A stretch of DNA of 22,764 bases from Anaeromyces robustus (Eukaryota > Neocallimastigomycota > Neocallimastigomycetes > Neocallimastigales > Neocallimastigaceae). Under the pieces are notes generated by a model. It searched no databases and was not told the origin of the DNA. It saw nothing but the letters and a program-made list of their open reading frames with translations. Shown piece by piece: positions 1 through 20,581 of this stretch; the first letter of the stretch is position 1, and every line of letters starts with the position of its first letter. A program made the translations under genes and the position numbers. Location: positions 1-22,764 of the forward strand of contig MCFG01000618.1 of NCBI GenBank assembly GCA_002104895.1, written 5' to 3'.

Positions 1-367
1 AATATATTATTATTTTTTATACAGTCATTACTAAAAGAATTAAGATTTGAGACAAATTTTATATATTAATTGAATGAATTTAATTTGATGTTATTTTTAA
101 ATGTTTATTCTTATATAAATATAAACTTTAAAAAATAATTTTTTTCTCAATTAATTAATTGGGCAGTTAATTTTATATATGATTATATGGTAACAGTCTT
201 GATTTGTTAAAAGTAATATATATATAATTTTAAAAAAAAAAAAAAAAAAACAAAATTTATTGTAATTTGTAACCGTACCAAATTTTAAGTACTTTGTGTA
301 TTAATTAATCTAAAATTAATCTAATCGATTATAATAATATTCATATTTTTAAATATAAAAATGGCTT

Positions 368-405
<38 letters not shown>

Positions 406-1119
406 ATTATGTATCCGTATCAATTTTTTTTTCCTTTTAATTTAATAAATATATAAATAAAATTTAAATAATCATATTTTATTTATTTATATAAACTATG
501 TCATTATGTATATAATATAATAAATTAAAAAATATTTTTTATATTTCTTAATTGGTCTATTAATTAATTATTTTTATTTATTTTTATGAAAATTCATAAA
601 ATCACTGATATTATCAAAATTATAAAATGAATTTAGTTGTTGTTAATTAGTAATAATAAAAATATAATATATATAGATGCATATTCTTATTTTAATTAAA
701 TTTTTATTAGAAGAAAAATATATATATATATCTTTTTCTTATTTATACATCATATTCTTATACTATACGATATAATTTTTGATAACAGGAATTAAATTTA
801 ACATTTGTGTCATTTTTTCGATTTTCAATTTTCGTTTTATATATTTAATTTGAAGAAATTTTTATGTTGCATATATATAAATAATTATTTTTAATATTAA
901 AATACAAAAGTTATTGTCTTAAAAAAAAAAAATTATTTTATTTAAAAAATTTTTTAATTTTATTTTATTTCGATTATAAAAGAAATTTGTTATAACCATA
1001 CTTTTTATTTAAAAATTTGAATTAGAATGAAAAATATATATATATATATAAAGCTTAAAATAAATTATAATAATATCATAACATTGTTTTAATATACATT
1101 TTTGTTTAAACTCATTTTT

Positions 1120-1120
<1 letters not shown>

Positions 1121-1187
<67 letters not shown>

Positions 1188-1190
1188 TTA
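1121..1190. repeat. TTTA microsatellite (left arm)
   Basis: About 70 bp of uninterrupted TTTA/ATTT tetranucleotide repeat, mirrored at 4453-4522 with the same length. Equal length in both arms is notable, because such tracts normally drift quickly. Confidence 0.9.
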
Positions 1191-1367
1191 TTACTAAATA
1201 TATAAATATAATAAAATATCATATTTTCTTTTTAGTATATTTATTATATGTTTTTTTGTTTCCATTAATTCTATAAATATGATATATGTTATATATATAA
1301 ACTTTTTTATATGTAGATTATGTTTTCTTATTTCATTGTATTATATAAAATATATAGTATATATTAC

Positions 1368-1490
1368 ATGGACAACAACAACAAAAAAAAGAAAGTTAAA
1401 AGAAATGGTTCAATATCTATTGCATTACAATATGAAGCATTATATCCTAATAAAAGTTTTATAACAAATTTTATATTACTATTATTGTAA
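1368..1490 (+). other. Possible coding remnant / 5' exon (left arm)
   Basis: A 40-codon frame opens with ATG, then three Asn and a run of Lys, followed by a mixed-composition stretch that includes GSISIALQYEALYPNKSF. That reads more like protein than the Ile/Tyr/Phe/Asn output of the surrounding DNA. It ends at TAA 1488-1490; a possible donor (GTAATT) lies at 1486. A possible acceptor (TTTCAG) at 1610-1615 precedes another short open stretch, and a third lies at 1702-1776, but I could not join them into a convincing gene. I do not recognise a family. It may be a decayed gene fragment or chance. Confidence 0.25.
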
Positions 1491-1701
1491 TTAAAAATAA
1501 TAATAATAAAATAATAAAAAAAATATAAAATAGTAATAATAATAAATAAGAATAATAATAATATTAATAATAAAGAAATCATAATAAAGAAGAAACATCG
1601 TTAGTATTATTTCAGATCTTTCGAAATTCATTTATAAAAAATAGTAATACAAGTTTTTATTTTGCTTTTTTTTTTTTTTTTTTTTAATTATCAAAATGTA
1701 A

Positions 1702-1776
1702 GTCTTATTTAGTATCCTATTTTTTATTAAAACACCAGCTATAGGAGGTATCTGGAAATTACGAGATAGAGCATAA
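1702..1776 (+). other. G+C-richer coding-like island (left arm)
   Basis: Bases 1730-1773 are roughly 40% G+C in a region otherwise near 10%. In the frame starting at 1702 they encode KTPAIGGIWKLRDRA before TAA at 1774-1776. Reading on in the same frame gives further protein-like segments broken by TAA and TAG. This looks like a decayed exon, but no family is recognised. The identical mirror copy lies on the minus strand at 3866-3940. Confidence 0.25.
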
Positions 1777-2237
1777 ATATTCATCAATTTAGATATAATT
1801 TTTAACTAGATATTAATTGAGATACTACAATAATTGTCAATCCTTTTGAAAAAAAAAAAAAAAAAGTTTTTGATATTGATATTAATAATAAAATTTAAAT
1901 AAATGTCATATAACAAAGACTTAATAAATTAATAATAATTAAATTTTATTTATTTATTCACTTTTATTTTTATGTTTACATGTATTTACTTTATATATAT
2001 ATATATTTTTTTTTTTGAATAAAAAATTTATTTTTTATTTTTACGTTTACATGTATTTATTTTATATCTTTTTTTTTTTTTTTTAATAAAAATTTATTAT
2101 AATTCTTATTCATTTTTAATTTTTAAATCATTTTAAATTCTTTATTTTGTATTTTTTTTTATTTATTAAGTTTCTAATTTATCTTTTATCCTTTAACATT
2201 AAGATCATAAAGGATATTCCATATTGATAACCTTTTA

Positions 2238-2486
2238 TTAACCTGAAGCTTTTACTTTATCAGGGTCGCCACAGCAAACTCCATCTTCACAAAGCTTTGT
2301 ACCTCTATCATAGGGTATCCAACCCTTTTTTCTACAAGCATCTTTGCTCATTACACATTCTGTACCATATACTTTTTTACCTTGGATGACGCATTGTTTA
2401 CCAATACCAGGTAATTTAGCCAAAGAAGATCCAAATAAAAGTACGGCAATTAAGGAAAATAAAAGTAATTCAGTATTGAAACGCAT
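2238..2486 (-). CDS. Small secreted six-cysteine protein, copy 1
   Basis: An 82-residue single-exon protein. Residues 1-23 form a signal peptide: a basic start, a Leu/Phe/Ile-rich core, and Ser-Ser-Leu-Ala before the likely cleavage at Lys24. The mature ~59 residues carry six cysteines at 32, 44, 51, 66, 71 and 72 (C-X11-C-X6-C-X14-C-X4-C-C), an even number suited to three disulfides, plus many Lys and Gly. It is probably an extracellular disulfide-stabilised peptide. I do not recognise the family; an effector, antimicrobial or inhibitor role would be speculation. The coding region is clearly richer in G+C than its flanks. The gene is identical in protein to copy 2 at 3155-3403 and points away from the palindrome centre. 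A TATAAAAAG-like element lies at about 2557-2565, some 70-80 bp upstream. Confidence 0.85.
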   Translation of the reverse strand: MRFNTELLLFSLIAVLLFGSSLAKLPGIGKQCVIQGKKVYGTECVMSKDACRKKGWIPYDRGTKLCEDGVCCGDPDKVKASG

Positions 2487-2730
2487 TCTCAGTATTTTTA
2501 TTAAAGTACAAATAACTTTTGTTTTTATTGATTTTTTTATTTGATTAAATTTCTCTCTTTTTATACTATTTTAAAAACTATATGAATTCTTTTTATGCTA
2601 TTTTTATGAATATTGACAATATTAAATACATTAATATTTTAATTTTGTGTTTTATTAAAGTATTAAAAATAATAAGCAAGAACCAATAAAATATCGCTTT
2701 TTTTGTATTATAATTTATATTTAATTAAGG

Positions 2731-2910
2731 TATAGCATTGTTTATTGTGTATATAATATGTATATATAACATATTTCTTTAGATAGCAATGTTTATTGTG
2801 TATATAATATTTATTTATACATCATTAAATATTTTATATACACAATAAACATTGCTATCTAAAGAAATATGTTATATATACATATTATATACACAATAAA
2901 CAATGCTATA
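2731..2910. repeat. 29-bp element, four copies around the palindrome axis
   Basis: A 29-bp element containing TGTTTATTGTGTATATAATA occurs at 2731-2759 and 2782-2810 as direct repeats with a 51-bp period and two mismatches. Its reverse complement occurs at 2831-2859 and 2882-2910. Each gene copy therefore has two elements upstream. They could be regulatory sites or relics of whatever formed the inverted repeat. Confidence 0.75.
2808..2833. other. Central spacer of the palindrome (~26 bp)
   Basis: Strict pairing fails between 2807 and 2834. Pairing 2808 with 2833 is the first mismatch, followed by scattered matches only. This asymmetric A+T-rich stretch is the loop of the inverted repeat and the symmetry axis of the head-to-head gene pair. 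Confidence 0.85.
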
Positions 2911-3154
2911 CCTTAATTAAATATAAATTATAATACAAAAAAAGCGATATTTTATTGGTTCTTGCTTATTATTTTTAATACTTTAATAAAACACAAAATT
3001 AAAATATTAATGTATTTAATATTGTCAATATTCATAAAAATAGCATAAAAAGAATTCATATAGTTTTTAAAATAGTATAAAAAGAGAGAAATTTAATCAA
3101 ATAAAAAAATCAATAAAAACAAAAGTTATTTGTACTTTAATAAAAATACTGAGA

Positions 3155-3403
3155 ATGCGTTTCAATACTGAATTACTTTTATTTTCCTTAATTGCCGTAC
3201 TTTTATTTGGATCTTCTTTGGCTAAATTACCTGGTATTGGTAAACAATGCGTCATCCAAGGTAAAAAAGTATATGGTACAGAATGTGTAATGAGCAAAGA
3301 TGCTTGTAGAAAAAAGGGTTGGATACCCTATGATAGAGGTACAAAGCTTTGTGAAGATGGAGTTTGCTGTGGCGACCCTGATAAAGTAAAAGCTTCAGGT
3401 TAA
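3155..3403 (+). CDS. Small secreted six-cysteine protein, copy 2
   Basis: Mirror copy of the gene at 2238-2486 with an identical 82-residue translation, including the signal peptide (1-23) and six mature cysteines (32, 44, 51, 66, 71, 72). The ATG at 3155 is the natural start because it begins the signal peptide directly. A TATAAAAAG-like box at 3076-3084 lies about 70 bp upstream. It is divergent from copy 1, with 668 bp between the start codons. Identity over the whole gene and its flanks means either very recent duplication or gene conversion, or one locus represented twice by an assembly fold-back. Function is unknown. Confidence 0.85.
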   Translation: MRFNTELLLFSLIAVLLFGSSLAKLPGIGKQCVIQGKKVYGTECVMSKDACRKKGWIPYDRGTKLCEDGVCCGDPDKVKASG

Positions 3404-3865
3404 TAAAAGGTTATCAATATGGAATATCCTTTATGATCTTAATGTTAAAGGATAAAAGATAAATTAGAAACTTAATAAATAAAAAAAAATACAAAATAAA
3501 GAATTTAAAATGATTTAAAAATTAAAAATGAATAAGAATTATAATAAATTTTTATTAAAAAAAAAAAAAAAAGATATAAAATAAATACATGTAAACGTAA
3601 AAATAAAAAATAAATTTTTTATTCAAAAAAAAAAAATATATATATATATAAAGTAAATACATGTAAACATAAAAATAAAAGTGAATAAATAAATAAAATT
3701 TAATTATTATTAATTTATTAAGTCTTTGTTATATGACATTTATTTAAATTTTATTATTAATATCAATATCAAAAACTTTTTTTTTTTTTTTTTCAAAAGG
3801 ATTGACAATTATTGTAGTATCTCAATTAATATCTAGTTAAAAATTATATCTAAATTGATGAATAT

Positions 3866-3940
3866 TTATGCTCTATCTCGTAATTTCCAGATACCTCCTA
3901 TAGCTGGTGTTTTAATAAAAAATAGGATACTAAATAAGAC
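3866..3940 (-). other. G+C-richer coding-like island (right arm)
   Basis: Mirror copy of 1702-1776, with the same short open stretch and the same stop. See the left-arm entry for composition and limits. Confidence 0.25.
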
Positions 3941-4152
3941 TTACATTTTGATAATTAAAAAAAAAAAAAAAAAAAAAGCAAAATAAAAACTTGTATTACT
4001 ATTTTTTATAAATGAATTTCGAAAGATCTGAAATAATACTAACGATGTTTCTTCTTTATTATGATTTCTTTATTATTAATATTATTATTATTCTTATTTA
4101 TTATTATTACTATTTTATATTTTTTTTATTATTTTATTATTATTATTTTTAA

Positions 4153-4275
4153 TTACAATAATAGTAATATAAAATTTGTTATAAAACTTTTATTAGGATA
4201 TAATGCTTCATATTGTAATGCAATAGATATTGAACCATTTCTTTTAACTTTCTTTTTTTTGTTGTTGTTGTCCAT
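4153..4275 (-). other. Possible coding remnant / 5' exon (right arm)
   Basis: Mirror copy of 1368-1490. ATG at 4275-4273 on the minus strand opens the same 40-codon frame, ending at TAA. No family is recognised. Confidence 0.25.
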
Positions 4276-4452
4276 GTAATATATACTATATATTTTATAT
4301 AATACAATGAAATAAGAAAACATAATCTACATATAAAAAAGTTTATATATATAACATATATCATATTTATAGAATTAATGGAAACAAAAAAACATATAAT
4401 AAATATACTAAAAAGAAAATATGATATTTTATTATATTTATATATTTAGTAA

Positions 4453-4455
4453 TAA

Positions 4456-4522
<67 letters not shown>
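4453..4522. repeat. TAAA microsatellite (right arm)
   Basis: Reverse complement of the tract at 1121-1190, with equal length (70 bp). Confidence 0.9.
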
Positions 4523-4523
<1 letters not shown>

Positions 4524-5237
4524 AAAAATGAGTTTAAACAAAAATGTATATTAAAACAATGTTATGATATTATTATAATTTATTTTAAGCTTTATATATA
4601 TATATATATTTTTCATTCTAATTCAAATTTTTAAATAAAAAGTATGGTTATAACAAATTTCTTTTATAATCGAAATAAAATAAAATTAAAAAATTTTTTA
4701 AATAAAATAATTTTTTTTTTTTAAGACAATAACTTTTGTATTTTAATATTAAAAATAATTATTTATATATATGCAACATAAAAATTTCTTCAAATTAAAT
4801 ATATAAAACGAAAATTGAAAATCGAAAAAATGACACAAATGTTAAATTTAATTCCTGTTATCAAAAATTATATCGTATAGTATAAGAATATGATGTATAA
4901 ATAAGAAAAAGATATATATATATATTTTTCTTCTAATAAAAATTTAATTAAAATAAGAATATGCATCTATATATATTATATTTTTATTATTACTAATTAA
5001 CAACAACTAAATTCATTTTATAATTTTGATAATATCAGTGATTTTATGAATTTTCATAAAAATAAATAAAAATAATTAATTAATAGACCAATTAAGAAAT
5101 ATAAAAAATATTTTTTAATTTATTATATTATATACATAATGACATAGTTTATATAAATAAATAAAATATGATTATTTAAATTTTATTTATATATTTATTA
5201 AATTAAAAGGAAAAAAAAATTGATACGGATACATAAT

Positions 5238-5277
<40 letters not shown>

Positions 5278-5647
5278 AAGCCATTTTTATATTTAAAAAT
5301 ATGAATATTATTATAATCGATTAGATTAATTTTAGATTAATTAATACACAAAGTACTTAAAATTTGGTACGGTTACAAATTACAATAAATTTTGTTTTTT
5401 TTTTTTTTTTTTTAAATTATATATATATATTACTTTTAACAAATCAAGACTGTTACCATATAATCATATATAGAAATTAACTGCCCAATTAATTAATTGA
5501 GAAAAAAATTATTTTTTAAAGTTTATATTTATATAAGAATAAACATTTAAAAATAACATCAAATTAAATTCATTCAATTAATATATAAAATTTGTCTCAA
5601 ATCTTAATTCTTTTAGTAATGACTGTATAAAAAATAATATATAATAT

Positions 5648-5872
<225 letters not shown>

Positions 5873-5880
<8 letters not shown>

Positions 5881-5912: not shown

Positions 5913-6534
5913 TATAAATGTTTAATAATAAATGTTAATGTTTCAATAGTTCATAACACAATAAGTAAAAATAAAATTTTTTTTATGTTTTTAATAAAAT
6001 TTTTTTCTATGTTTTTATTTTTAACTAAAAATATGTAAAATAGAAATTAGAATGAATCTTATTGTATATAAATTTATTTAATATACTGCCTGAATGAAAA
6101 TTCATAAATACATTTTTTTTTAATTGATATTTTTCTATTAATGTAATTTTAACAATTATTTTATAATTAAAATAAAAATAAATAAACATAATTTGTTCTA
6201 TACTTTGACAATAATAATAATAAAGTAAAAAAAAAAAGAAAAAAGAAAAATCAAAAATCAAAAATAAACAATCAAAAATCAAAAATTTATGTTTATTCCG
6301 TTTATCATAAATTTTATCAAGAAATTCACTGCCAGAATAAAAATATTAATAAAATAAAAAATTTTTTTTTAAAAATAATAAAAATGAAGTATATTAAAAA
6401 AGATTTTATTAAAAATTAAGATAGAATTTATTTCATTAATTCAATTAAAAATTATAAAAATTGATTAAATAAAAAATTTTTTATTTACATTTTCATTTAA
6501 TAATAAATTATTTGAATAATAAATAAATAATAAT
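5913..6534. other. Intergenic, no gene seen
   Basis: A+T-rich DNA. At about 6248-6287 a short ATCAAAA-type motif is repeated four times. An 85-codon minus-strand frame at 6025-6282 is only low-complexity Phe/Tyr/Ile output and lacks protein-like composition. Confidence 0.6.
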
Positions 6535-6840
6535 TAATAATAATTAATAATATAAATAATTTTAATAATAATAATAATAATAATTAGTAATTAGCAATAA
6601 CTAATAAATAATAATAATTAATAATATAAATAATTTTAATAATAATAATAATAATAATAATTAGTAATTAACAATAACTAATAAATAATAATAATTAATA
6701 ATATAAATAATTTTAATAATAATAATAATAATAATAATTAGTAATTAACAATAGCTAATAAATAATAATAATTAATAATAGTAAATAATATTAATAATAA
6801 TAATAATTAGTAATTAACAATAGCTAATAAATAATAATAA
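6535..6840. repeat. ~77-bp tandem repeat, four copies
   Basis: A unit containing TTAGTAATTAACAATAACT recurs with that motif at 6584, 6661, 6738 and 6808, giving periods of 77, 77 and 70. Copies differ by point changes (GC/AC, AACT/AGCT) and in the number of AAT triplets, and the last is shortened. The array ends about 40 bp before the ATG of the VWA-Vint gene, so it occupies that gene's promoter or 5' UTR. Confidence 0.85.
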
Positions 6841-6878
6841 AGGTTTAATAAAAGCATTGATAATTAATCTACTTAAGA

Positions 6879-7908
6879 ATGTCCTTTAATATATTTAAAA
6901 AAAAAGTTGGTAGTAAAACAACTCAAAATGTAGAATTTGAAGAATTATTTGGTCGTTATATTTCAGAAGAAAAAAGTAACGGTTTATGTAAAGATTCCAT
7001 TCATGTATGTATGAAACCTAAAAAAGTTAAAAGTACTTTACCAGTATGTTTAATTTGTGTAGTAGATATTTCTGGTTCAATGAATATAAATTGTTGTAAT
7101 AATGTCGATGGAATGAAATCAATGTATCTTTCAAGACTTGAATTAGTTAAACATTCAATTAAAACTATTGTTTCAACTTTAAGAAAAGATGATATGATTA
7201 GTATTATTACATTTGATAATGATGCTAATATGAAAATTTAACCAACTATATTAATAAATAAAGAAAAAAAAGATGATGTAATTAGTAAAATAGATGAAAT
7301 TACTACAAAAGGATGTACTAATATGTGGGCTGGTATTAAAATGGCTATTGATACTTCATGTACTATTTCATATGAAAATTATCAAAAATCTATTATGGTA
7401 TTTACAGATGGTGACTCTAATGAAAACCCACCTAAAGGAGTGTATGAAACATTAAAAGATGAATTAGAAATAATATCTAAAGATAAATTTACTATTTCTA
7501 CTTTTTCATTTGGTAATAATATTAAACCAAAATTATTAATTGATATTGCAAATCTATGTAATGGTATTTATGGATATTGCCCTGATGGAACTATGGTTGG
7601 AACTATATTTATTAATTATATGTCTAATCTTCTTTCTACTATTACTCCTATTGTTCAAGTTACAATTACACAAGGTAATGATAATAAAAATACTACAGTT
7701 ATTGGTCCATTATATCGAGGAATTTATAGAAATGCTATTTTCAATATTGATAAAAAATTATTAAATGAAACTAAAATTATTGTTGAACTTCCAATGACAG
7801 GTCAAAAATTTGAAGTTCCTCTTAATATGGATAGTCCAAATCTTCAAACATATATTGATGAAATGTCAGAATTAGACAAGAAATCAAATAATACGGATAT
7901 TGATCATA

Positions 7909-7952
<44 letters not shown>

Positions 7953-9194
7953 TTACTTGATAAAGAATCAGATGAAGAAACTCTTAAACTTGAAGATATT
8001 GATACAAATGGAATAATTGAAGAGAAAGATTCTAAACCTATTCAATATGAAGAAATTCTTCTCAATCAATTAATGAGAGATGAATTTATTAATATTCTTA
8101 AAAAAATTGTTCAAACTGAAAATTTATCTTTATATAATGAAGAAAATGAAAGAGCTAAAAAATTTTTAAAAGATTATTATGATTTATTGACAAGTATCAA
8201 ATATAAAACCAAATTTATTAAAGATTTAATGATTGATATTGATAATCCAGATCCAAATCATGGACAAGTTGAAAAAGCTATTCGTATGGAATATTATAAA
8301 ACATGGGGAGAATGTTATATTAATTCATTTTTAAGATTCCATCAACTTGAACAATGTGGTAATTTTAAAGATCAATCTTTACAATATTATGGAAGTGATG
8401 TTTTTTCTACTTATAGAAAAATGGCTAATACTATATTTGTTAATCTTCCACCACCAAAAACTGAATCTAGAAGTTATTACAGAGGTAGTGGTAATGTCCA
8501 TTCATCTGGTCAAACATTCCAAATGAGTAATTTTATTAATCGTCATGGAGGATGTTTTAATGGAGATGCTATTGTATTATTAGCAAATGGAAAAACTAAA
8601 TATGTTAAAGATTTGAAAAAAGGAGATCGTCTTAATAATAATGCAATAGTTCAATGTCTTATTGAACAAACTTCTTCTTCTTCTTCTTCTTCATCTTCTG
8701 ATAAGAATCATTTATCAAAATTATATATGTGTGATATTCAAGGAGTTTTATTTACACCATATCATCCTATATTAATGAATAATGAATGGTATTTCCCAAA
8801 TGATCTTGTTGAAAGTAAAGAAGTTTCAATTCATTCATGGTTTAATTTAATATTAATGGATGAAGAAAATAAAAAATATGAAGTTGAATTTTCTAATGGA
8901 ATTAAAGCTATTACTTTAGGACATTATCGTGAAGAAAATGAAGTTTTAAAACATCCATATTTTGGAACAGATTTAGTATTAAAAGATTTACAAGAAAGAG
9001 ATCCTATTGGATATTCTCAAGGATATATTTTCATAAATGAATTTAATCCAAGAAAATTACAATTCGATAAAGATAATCAATATTGTATTAATTATTATAA
9101 AGTAATACCTGAAACAGAAACAACAATACAAAGTAAAACTGAAGATATTAAAAATATAATTGTAAATAATGATTTTAATAAATTAGTATATTAA
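6879..9194 (+). CDS. VWA-Vwaint-Vint (Hint) protein, interrupted by one in-frame TAA
   Basis: One 772-codon frame, open except for TAA at 7239-7241 (codon 121). Both sides belong to one protein because the stop falls inside the VWA domain. The MIDAS motif D63-x-S65-x-S67 is before it; T147 (CTN) and D177 (FTDG) are after it. A middle region follows, with an acidic run of about 13 Asp near residue 350 and a helical segment matching the Vwaint region known from this architecture. A Hint/Vint domain starts at C559 (HGGCFNGD) and has the TxxH motif T626-P-Y-H629. A Ser run lies near residue 600. Hint domains usually self-process at such a Cys; activity is not shown here. Plain alternatives are a pseudogene, sequencing error, readthrough, or restart at Met149 giving 623 residues without a complete MIDAS. 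No intron is needed to explain the frame. It converges on the ankyrin gene. Confidence 0.85.
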
Positions 9195-9381
9195 AATATA
9201 TTTTAATAAATCCTAAGTAATATAACTATTGTCTTTATTATTAATAATTTTTGGAAAATATAGTATTAATAATTAAATAAATAAATAATTAATTAAATAA
9301 TTAATAAAAAATAAATAAATATATAAATAAATATATATATATATAAATAAATAAATAAATAACAAATAAATAAATAAATAA

Positions 9382-9425
<44 letters not shown>

Positions 9426-9535
9426 AAACAACTAATATATATTTGATAAAGATAAATCTTTTTATTATTTTATAAAATTCTTTTTTTTTTTAACATCTTT
9501 ATCGAAAATAATAAAAATAAACTTATATTTTTTAA
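9195..9535. other. Intergenic region between convergent genes
   Basis: Shared 3' flank of the VWA-Vint and ankyrin genes. It is mostly TAAA microsatellite (about 9275-9425) and a T run near 9481. No gene or distinct terminator was seen. Confidence 0.7.
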
Positions 9536-12007
<2,472 letters not shown>

Positions 12008-16308: not shown

Positions 16309-17550
16309 TTAATTTTCTTCCTTTTCAAGTAAAGCAGTGAATTTTTCAACAATTCCTTCTAAAGTTTTGGCCTTTTGATTACCAACTTCAATAACTTCAG
16401 CATGAGAAATAGTTGGTTTTTTGTAGTTTTCAGCAGCAATTTGTTCTGGAGACTTAAAGGAAGTAAGAGTAAAGTCTTGGTTAACCATGTTAGTAACTAA
16501 ACTAATACCAATAACTTCCATACCACAGTGATTACCTACAGTAGCTTCTGGTGCAGTACTCATTCCTACTAAATCACCAATTTTAGCAAAGAAACGAGCT
16601 TCAGCTGGAGTTTCATAACTTGGACCACTTAAACAGATATAAGTACCTTCTTTTAAAGTATTATAGTCACATTGGGCAGCAGCTTGAGTGAAAAGATAAC
16701 GTAAACGGTGACTGTAAACATTTAACATTGGTGGGAAACGATCACCGAAAATAGAAAGATTTTGACCAATAAGTGGATTGGAACCAGTGAAGTTAAGGAA
16801 AGAAATATGATCACGAATAATAACTAAATCACCAGTGTTGAATTCTTTGTTTAAACCACCAGCAGCATTAGTTAAAATTAAAATTTTAGCTCCAAACATT
16901 CTGAAAATTCTAATTGGGAAAGAAACTTTTTGAGCTGAGTGACCTATTGTTAATATTTATTTGTTTTTATTTTATTTTATTTATTTATTTATTTTTTTTT
17001 TATTTTTATTTTTTTTTTTTGTATTTGTATTTTATGGAGATCATGTTTAATTATTAATTTATCAATTATTATATACGAAGAAATTCATTTATTGAATTTT
17101 CATTTTTATTATTTAGTTTAATAATGAATATAAGTTAATATTTCGTTAGATTTTTATATAGAAGTATATTATATTTAAATATATAGAAATAATAAATATG
17201 GAATAATAGTTCAGTATAAATAAATAAATATATATAAAATTATAATCATTTATACATTATAAATTAAAAATAATTGGATAATTTGATATAAAAATCTAAA
17301 TAAATATATTGTAATTTATAAAATTATTTTGCATATTACCTTCATAAAAGTGGAATCTTCCTACCATACAAACTACTGGAGTATTAGAAAGAATACCAAA
17401 AACTAATTTACCTTTATGACCTGGAACTGTACTTTGAGCAAATCCAGGGATATCCTTATTGATTATTTAAATATAAATAATAAATAAAAAATTATTTAAC
17501 ATTTAATTTCATTTATTTTTAAATAAATTATATATATAAATAAATATTCA

Positions 17551-17581
<31 letters not shown>

Positions 17582-17768
17582 TATTGTTATTGAACTTTAC
17601 TTTATAGTCGAAACCAACAGTATCCTTAATTTTATCAGCTAAATTATTTAAACCACTACCACAAACAATGGCAATTTTAACCTTTCTAAGGTTTTCTGGA
17701 AGTTTTTCATATAAATAATTGTAGCATTCAACGTAATTTTCTGGGAAATCTTTCAAATTAAGGCTCAT
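16309..17768 (-). CDS. Purine nucleoside phosphorylase (three exons)
   Basis: Exons on the minus strand are 17768-17601, 17454-17340 and 16943-16309, with introns of 146 and 396 nt (GTAAAG...AAG, GTAATA...TAG). They join to 305 residues, against 289 in human PNP and a similar length in fungi. It is a trimeric-type PNP: phosphorolysis of inosine and guanosine to base plus ribose-1-phosphate, in cytosolic purine salvage. The phosphate loop is GSGL (37-40). STVPGHKG and [10 protein letters not shown] (88-97) follow, then TNAAGG (119-124). SGPSYE has E205, then M222 in VGMSTAPE, and N246 in TNMV; these correspond to human E201, M219 and N243. All key residues are present. Exon 2 ends on a split Gly codon. 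Beyond residue 56 the apparent exon-1 frame runs into the intron. The gene is intact and co-directional with the LIM gene. Confidence 0.95.
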
Positions 17769-19073
17769 TTTTTCCTTTAATTTTTTATATTATATATATA
17801 AATTATAAATAAATAATATTATGTTTTTTTATATATAAATGATAAAGAGTTTTAAAAAAAAAATTTTTTTTTATATTATTTAAATTTTTTTTTTTTTTGT
17901 TAAGGATTATAATTAAATGTAAGGATTATATTAAAAAATTTTTTTTTTATTATTAATATAAATAGTTGTATACATTGATTATATTATAATATTTTTATAT
18001 TATATTATTTTATTTTATTTTATTTTATTTTATTTTATTTTATTTTAAATGTATCTTTTTATAAATTAGAATATTAGAATATTAAATATAAGAATATTAT
18101 AAAAATTTTGTTTAACATTAAAATTAAAAAATGAAAAAAAAAAAATAAAATAAATAAATAATTTTTATATATAAAAAAATATATACAAATACAATTTAAT
18201 AAATAATTTAATAATAAAAAAAAGTCCTTATTTTTAATATTATTATTTAATAATATATTATTTTTATTTTTTTTTAATGTTAAACAAAATATTAGAATAA
18301 TGATAATTTTTATATTGTTTTGACAGATCAAAAAATAAAATAAAGCTTAATATTAATAAATAAATTAAAGATTATGTGATTTAAATTATATTTCAATATT
18401 CTATATTATCCACTTTTTTTTTTATTATATAAATTATTTTATTTCTATATATTTCGATATTCTTTAATTATCCACTTTTTTTTTATTATATAATTTTTTT
18501 TAATTATTTTATTTCTATATAATTTTTTAATTTTATATATTTCTATAATATATATGTATATTTATACATATTTAATATATAAATATTTTTTTTATTTTGT
18601 TATGTAATTTTTTCTATTCTTTATTCTAATTATTATTTTTTTATATATATATAGTTTTAATTAATAAATTATTTTATATATAATACATATTATTTATTTA
18701 AAGTTAAAAATATATATGATTATTAAATTATTTAATTATTCTACTTTCTTTTTTTCTCTCTCTTTTTTTTTTTACCATTTTATAGTTATGCTAAATATAA
18801 AAGTTAATATAAAAATAAAAGAGAAAGAAGAAAATTTAAGAAATATAAGATAAGATGTGAAACATTTCTATTAAAATATTAAAATTAAATATATAAGATA
18901 AAAAAATATGAAGTAAAGCAATAACTTCTAATATAGAATCTTGTAAAATATATATGCTTTAAAAAATGAAATTTTAAGTTTTTTTTATTTTTTTTTTTTA
19001 AAAAAAAAAAAACAAAAATAAAAAATATAATATAAAAAAATTAAAAAGATAAGTAAAAAAAGAATAAATAAAA
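17769..19073. other. Intergenic region between LIM gene 3' end and PNP start
   Basis: About 1.3 kb, nearly all A/T. It contains eight units of TTTTA at about 18006-18047. A ~60-bp direct repeat (period 62) holds TATCCACTTTTTTTTTATTA at 18407 and 18469. A poly(T)-poly(A) palindrome at about 18988-19012 lies 60-85 bp past the LIM stop. PNP promoter elements must lie near 17769-17900 but cannot be identified. An 85-codon frame at 18074-18331 is low complexity. No gene was seen. Confidence 0.65.
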
Positions 19074-20431
19074 TTATTCTTCTTGTGCTTGTGAACATTC
19101 TTCACAATAAACTTCTTGCATTGTATTTCCATTGCCATCATCTAATTCCATAATGTAACATTGTTTTCCGGAAAGAGTTGTTTTACATTTAGAACAAACA
19201 AAATGATCCTCATGATAGTATTTACCTTCAAAATCAATATAAGTATCCACAATTAATTGTTTACATTCAGCACAGTATAAGTTATCATCTTCTACATAAT
19301 GCTGTTCGCAATAAGGTTCGTTATCAACTTCATAGAATGTATCTTCCAATACTTTACCACATTTCTACATTTTTATGATTTTGATTTTTATTATAATTAT
19401 AATTATTAATAATTATTATCATTATAATAATTATTAATAATATTTATTTATTATAAAAATTATTATTATTATTAAAGTAATTATCAAATATTTTTATTTA
19501 TTTATTTACCATCATTATATTAAATAAATAAAAGAATTATTTATATAATACTTACTTTGCATTTGAAACAATAAGTATGCCAAACACTATTTAGCGCTTC
19601 AATGTAATCACTATTACCTATTTCAGTATTACATCCTGAACATTTAACAACATTATTAGTATTTTCGAATTTTGGATTAATAAGTGATTGACGTACAGCT
19701 GAATTCTTTCTTTTAGAAATGTAGTTATCCATACTAAATATTTGAGTTTTACGTTTACTAACATTTTTATTTAAATTATTTGAAATACTATTTTCTTCTC
19801 TTTTAGGATTTTCACTTATAATAAAATTATCTAAAGTAATTTCATTAATATCACTAGTAGCTCGATGACTTGTTGGTGTTTTAATCATATAGGCTTGATC
19901 ATCATCAAGACTTCCTTTTCTAGTATAATCTTCTAATCCAAGTTCTGTTGAATTATTAACAGAATTTTTGCTATCTTCTAATTTACTTTTTAAAAAATCA
20001 TCTGATCCATTAGATGAATCATTAATTCCATCAAATGAACTATTAACAATAGCTTCTAATTGTAATATAGCTTCATCTTGAGTTACTAAAGGTGAAGATA
20101 TTTTTGGTAATGACATAATTGATGAATTTTTACTAGTTATATTTTTTTCTGTATCACTATTAAGTGATTCATGTGAAAAGTTATAACCATTATTGATACC
20201 ATTCATAATGGATTCTTCTTCTAATTGTCTAAATCTTTTAAAGAATTCACTATCTTCTTGAGAATGTGAATTTATAGAAGTTGCTGATGGAGAACGATTA
20301 AATGAACTTAATTGAGATATATGATGATTAACTGGTATAATTTCTGGAAGATTAAATATTGCTTTACTAACATGTTTACTAATATCTGAAATATCTGTAT
20401 TCGATCTGTCAATGACTTTTTTTTTTTTCAT
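19074..20431 (-). CDS. Two-LIM-domain protein, paxillin-like (two exons)
   Basis: Exons are 20431-19556 and 19364-19074 with a 191-nt intron (GTAAGT...TAG). The product is 388 residues. Residues 1-260 are Ser/Asn-rich and probably disordered, with a charged helix near 60-80 (EDSEFFKRFRQLEEESIM) and an acidic LEAIVNSSFDG-like motif near 125-140. LIM1 has all eight zinc ligands: C264, C267, H285, C288, C291, C294, C311, H314. LIM2 has C323, C326, H343, H346, C349, C352, C379, C382, with the H-x2-H spacing seen in paxillin-type LIM domains. Such proteins act as adaptors at the actin cortex or the cytokinetic ring; fungal Pxl1 is the closest role I can suggest. The intron splits LIM1 between its fifth and sixth ligands. 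The gene is intact. Confidence 0.9.
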
Positions 20432-20581
20432 TATTTTATTTTTTTATTTATTCGTTTTAATGTGAATTTTTTATATTATATATTTTGTATAATAAAAAAA
20501 TAAAGAAAAAAATATTATTAGTAATAATGAAATAAGTTTTTTTTTTATTTTGAATGTAATTTATTTTTTTATAACTTAATT

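Follow-up and report, generated by a model that had tools for sequence, protein, structure and literature searches.

Contig C577 of the Anaeromyces robustus assembly GCA_002104895.1 (accession number, MCFG01000618.1), the whole 22,764 bp of which form the window analysed here, begins with a near-perfect inverted repeat with arms of about 2.8 kb, and this mirror image probably arose when a short inverted repeat allowed one or a few DNA molecules to fold back on themselves and the product was built into the contig end. The organism is an anaerobic gut fungus of the Neocallimastigomycota, and its assembly comprises 769 contigs and 70.17 Mb. In the initial annotation, which was made from the letters of the window, the repeat, if real, was tentatively read as a recent inverted duplication, as a palindrome kept uniform by gene conversion, or as a folded chromosome end; the structure itself is present in the assembly, none of the three readings was demonstrated, and the first of them is possible. 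The annotation did not state that the left arm has no flank, and this alters the interpretation.

Structure of the inverted repeat

The left arm (1-2813, minus strand) runs to the contig end and aligns with 2826-5648 when gaps are allowed, and the right arm (2826 to about 5648, plus strand), delimited by ungapped blocks, gapped alignment and folding, leads on into the remainder of the contig. At the midpoint of the mirror, folding of 2796-2846 with DNA parameters gave an AT-rich loop of 12 nt (2814-2825), closed by 8 bp and followed by a 2-nt bulge and then by the long arms; the right side of this innermost stem, together with the bulge, was placed at 2826-2835 (plus strand) by the fold and by the gapped alignment. 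The stem and bulge may have been left over from a short, imperfect inverted repeat of natural origin, or they may reflect a consensus error. In place of the 26-bp spacer given in the annotation, the spacing is thus 12 nt by folding, or 20 nt by the ungapped repeat finder.

The repeat finder returned ungapped inverted block pairs at 343-1685/3958-5300 (1,343 nt, 99%), 2006-2810/2831-3635 (805 nt, 100%), 1654-2042/3600-3988 (389 nt, 96%), 229-401/5244-5416 (173 nt, 100%) and 8-173/5474-5639 (166 nt, 100%), which together span 8-173 and 229-2810 plus their mirror. The longest exact identities between the arms (1,316 and 802 nt) far exceed chance, even in very AT-rich DNA. The description of near-perfect arms of about 2.8 kb at this place was confirmed, the ungapped blocks reaching 1,343 nt at 96-100% identity, and the near-identity was found to extend across noncoding DNA and the gene. 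Base 8, which had been taken as the left boundary, is not firm, and the gapped alignment brings the left arm to base 1 by way of two 1-base gaps in the terminal bases.

The right arm leaves the symmetry at an array of 59 TATT copies (5645-5880, 236 bp), beyond which the sequence is no longer mirrored. Because the window is the entire contig, the left arm stops where the contig stops and has no outer flank. The mirror therefore touches the contig end and unique sequence lies on its right side only, as would be expected of a fold-back artefact.

Differences between the arms

Gapped alignment of the two arms gave a single mismatch column, which falls within an ambiguous AT repeat, and 8 gap events, all of them in the left (terminal) arm (8:0; sign test, 0.008). 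One of the 8 gaps is the central bulge, and two more fall at the very end of the contig, where the program could have aligned the bases otherwise; in the main part alone, 1 mismatch column and 5 gap events remained (5:0; sign test, 0.06), and the same 5 gaps were recovered under four further scoring schemes. The arms thus differ by gaps of the consensus type and hardly by substitutions, again as expected of a fold-back artefact, and, judged from their sequences, they look like one sequence written twice, with more bases missing from the terminal copy.

A second inverted duplication in the same assembly served as a yardstick. It lies inside contig C268 (284,809 bp), with arms at 120379-125122 and 125870-130004 that are 747 nt apart and align in five segments of 87.6-96.6% identity. 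Within these segments (the unaligned stretches between them were left out of the counts), 101 substitutions and 29 gap events were found, the gaps being split 16:13 between the arms. Since the main part of the C577 repeat has 1 mismatch and 5 gaps, its differences do not resemble a scaled-down version of the C268 divergence. Both duplications hold divergently oriented copies of the same small-protein family within inverted arms; the C268 duplication is in the interior of a contig, with 747 nt between its arms and many substitutions, whereas that of C577 is at a contig end and has a loop of 12 nt.

The duplicated open reading frame and its family

Each arm of C577 contains an open reading frame (ORF) of 82 amino acids, the left copy at 2238-2486 on the minus strand and the right copy at 3155-3403 on the plus strand, and both copies are intact and identical over the ORF. 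By eye, the product appears to be a small cysteine-rich protein with a signal-like N-terminus. A public protein of 92 amino acids, BCR32DRAFT_287684 (hypothetical, Anaeromyces robustus), has its first 81 amino acids in common with the ORF product; its tail is encoded at 3653-3688, which indicates an intron of about 250 bp.

No Pfam match was obtained for the 82-amino-acid protein, and a search of 5.8 billion proteins (E <= 1, 3 candidates) returned its own record only. In the assembly, it gave 8 matches, namely the two in the window, the pair in the C268 arms (a related gene present twice, in the divergent layout of the window pair), one each in contigs C84, C148 and C39, and a weak one in C215 (E = 0.21). 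Relatives in the assembly are 44-50% identical to it; because the protein search had missed them, its result does not show that the protein is restricted to A. robustus. For C84, C148 and C39, the matches listed included no inverted second copy of the gene or of a long flank. The 3.2-kb loci around these three genes, and the short locus covered in C215, were also free of inverted repeats reaching 150 bp.

When the arm was searched against the assembly, 40 of the 2,473 candidates were scored, and among these no long match other than the two arms was found, the other matches listed being short and AT-rich. An allelic contig without the palindrome was sought with the arm and with the regions 6840-12000 and 16310-20440 and was not found among the 40 candidates scored for each. 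The closest other match among those listed was in C199 (94% over 1.1 kb, window 8309-9423) and was taken as a paralogue.

Origin of the repeat

In the artefact proposed here, a DNA end would have snapped back at a natural, short and imperfect inverted repeat (a stem of 8 bp, a 2-nt bulge and about 10 further bp, with a 12-nt loop) and been filled in during library making, yielding one or a few molecules that read template, loop and complement. Starting from the real locus (2826 and rightwards), the assembler would then have continued across the loop and into the complementary copy up to the end of the read, so that the contig would terminate in a 2.8-kb copy of its own sequence. This course is favoured by what is seen in the assembly, namely the geometry, the position at a contig end, the one-sided gaps and the lack of another long copy among the candidates scored. 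Folding back at a short inverted repeat of natural origin, which can take place in the tube as well as in the cell, would account for the loop and for the small asymmetry next to it. A review names PacBio as the only source of reads for this genome, at 20x, and Falcon, FinisherSC and Quiver as the assembly programs (PMC5622200); the totals given there are 1,035 contigs and 71.69 Mb, against the 769 contigs and 70.17 Mb analysed here. Stems of at least 10 bp with loops of 3-20 nt occur at 5.5 positions per kb in the unique part of the contig and at 0.5-0.8 in shuffles, so that short inverted repeats are about 7 to 12 times commoner than in three single-base shuffles, where the counts include overlapping positions and simple AT repeats and the single-base shuffle, which breaks AT repeats, is a lenient control.

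Palindromic or fold-back molecules are on record in long-read data. In two reports, palindromic reads made up 0.5% of an unamplified PacBio control, false positives included (PMC6218980), and fold-backs about 0.6% of nanopore genomic reads (PMC12870357). The former warns that palindromic reads can matter, and its discussion allows that unamplified data may suffer; among the matches listed in our literature search on inverted artefacts at contig ends, it was the only useful paper. C577 shares with such reads a near-perfect mirror, a short or absent spacer and one-sided unique sequence; it differs from them in that the mirror lies in a finished contig, has a genomic-looking loop and is known here from the assembly alone. 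No paper on a palindrome in A. robustus turned up among the 10 of 3,401 matches listed, none of which named the species, a search result that says little.

Several observations weigh against an artefact. None of 18 contig starts folded back (10 kb each; threshold for an inverted repeat, 150 bp and 90% identity), so terminal fold-backs are not rife, although this control is weak, since 18 of 1,538 ends, all of them starts, are too few to gauge a rate of about 1%. The genomic-looking centre speaks against a simple missed adapter, and this variant was rejected as the exact cause, since the centre looks like neither a blunt joint nor an adapter. The authors of PMC6218980 judged the figure for their unamplified control too low to alter their assembly, and PacBio HiFi reads are described as virtually without fold-backs, with 0.03% in Iso-Seq (PMC12870357). 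This near-absence in HiFi counts somewhat against an artefact. Older PacBio chemistry may differ from HiFi in its fold-back behaviour. Moreover, differences made up of gaps only could also arise by slippage if a duplication were very young, and one-sided gaps could simply follow from ordinary low coverage near the end of a contig, even in a real palindrome. Finally, C268 holds an inverted duplication in a contig interior, in which copies of a related gene have the same divergent orientation.

In the main rival reading, the palindrome is a real and very recent inverted duplication, for which the natural short inverted repeat would have primed a fold-back in the living cell, through a break, resection, snap-back, fill-in and replication, with the contig stopping where the mirrored arm becomes indistinguishable from the right arm; this history is conceivable, and we consider it less than even in probability. 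It draws support from the C268 duplication as a precedent in the same genome, from the clean contig-start control, which indicates that the assembly is not full of fold-back ends, from the intact and identical ORF copies, and from the short inverted repeat at the centre, with its 8-bp stem, bulge and 12-nt loop, which resembles the product of fold-back priming in yeast. There, priming used an 11-bp imperfect repeat with a 6-bp spacer and also a 5-bp repeat with a 35-bp spacer (PMC10622511); a centre made of a short, imperfect inverted repeat with a short loop is common to both systems. Short inverted repeats are common in the contig, however, and an artefact would show the same centre; in addition, there is no unique left flank and all gaps are in the terminal arm. 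Unlike the yeast duplications, C577 also retains the asymmetry of its repeat, which may be a consensus error, whereas both repeat mismatches were corrected in all sequenced sae2-deletion clones (PMC10622511); it further differs from these duplications in lacking a left flank and in being known from an assembly alone.

The other two readings are much less probable. A natural DNA end closed by a hairpin, of a chromosome or of a linear element, would let the polymerase round the closed end and would give reads all mirrored at the same loop, and the terminal palindrome, the 12-nt loop and the absence of an adapter-like centre fit that geometry. Telomere repeats of the TTAGGG type were likewise not found (0 matches with up to 2 mismatches in 18 bases across the whole 70-Mb assembly; a period-6 GGG pattern gave 1 match, which is not TTAGGG, and period 7 gave 0), so that such repeats mark no contig end as telomeric, but a gap in the assembly explains the missing repeats equally well. 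A partial match to the telomerase RNA-binding domain was obtained in C162 (32.3 bits, cut-off 25; model positions 53-99 of 133), for which none of 14 control genomes gave a match, and the telomere resolvase family PF16684 had no match in the assembly (1 of the 14 control genomes matched). Because of these two results a hairpin end, the folded chromosome end of the annotation, is disfavoured, and since the contig also bears fungal-looking chromosomal genes, at least one of them with an intron, we regard it as very improbable. An old palindrome whose arms were kept uniform by gene conversion would fit the near-identity seen in the gene and in noncoding DNA alike, yet nothing separates this from youth or artefact, and the C268 arms, which carry the related gene, have drifted to 87.6-96.6% and hence were not kept uniform; this explanation is given hardly any weight. 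As an observation apart, the telomerase-domain match in C162 stands in an assembly of 70 Mb without any TTAGGG-type array.

Other features of the contig

Apart from the repeat, the contig carries a Vint gene, an ankyrin gene, a purine nucleoside phosphorylase gene and LIM-domain exons. The Vint/Hint gene (6879-9194) has weak vWA matches below the cut-off and an in-frame stop at 7239-7241, which may reflect a pseudogene, an unseen intron or a sequencing error; DNA related to it occurs in C445 and C199. A 77-bp tandem repeat of 4.3 copies (6522-6840) lies just upstream of it. The ankyrin-repeat ORF (9536-11848, minus strand) includes a triplet array (10887-11150; 88 units) that is translated as a poly-asparagine run, and a two-copy 27-bp repeat at 11758-11812.

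Implications

If the mirror image is an artefact, as seems probable, about 2.8 kb and one gene copy are spurious in the public A. robustus assembly, and what truly precedes base 2826 is either absent from the assembly or placed on a different contig. The alternative that C577 holds a real, very young palindrome, primed by fold-back in the cell and doubling head to head the gene for a small cysteine-rich, secreted-looking protein, is put forward tentatively and is rather doubtful. Should it be true, the window would hold a fresh example of gene duplication by fold-back, from a fungus with extremely AT-rich DNA whose genome already shows an older inverted duplication in the same family; this gene family would then have undergone inverted duplication at least twice (C577 and C268), which would hint that very AT-rich fungal genomes often duplicate genes by fold-back.

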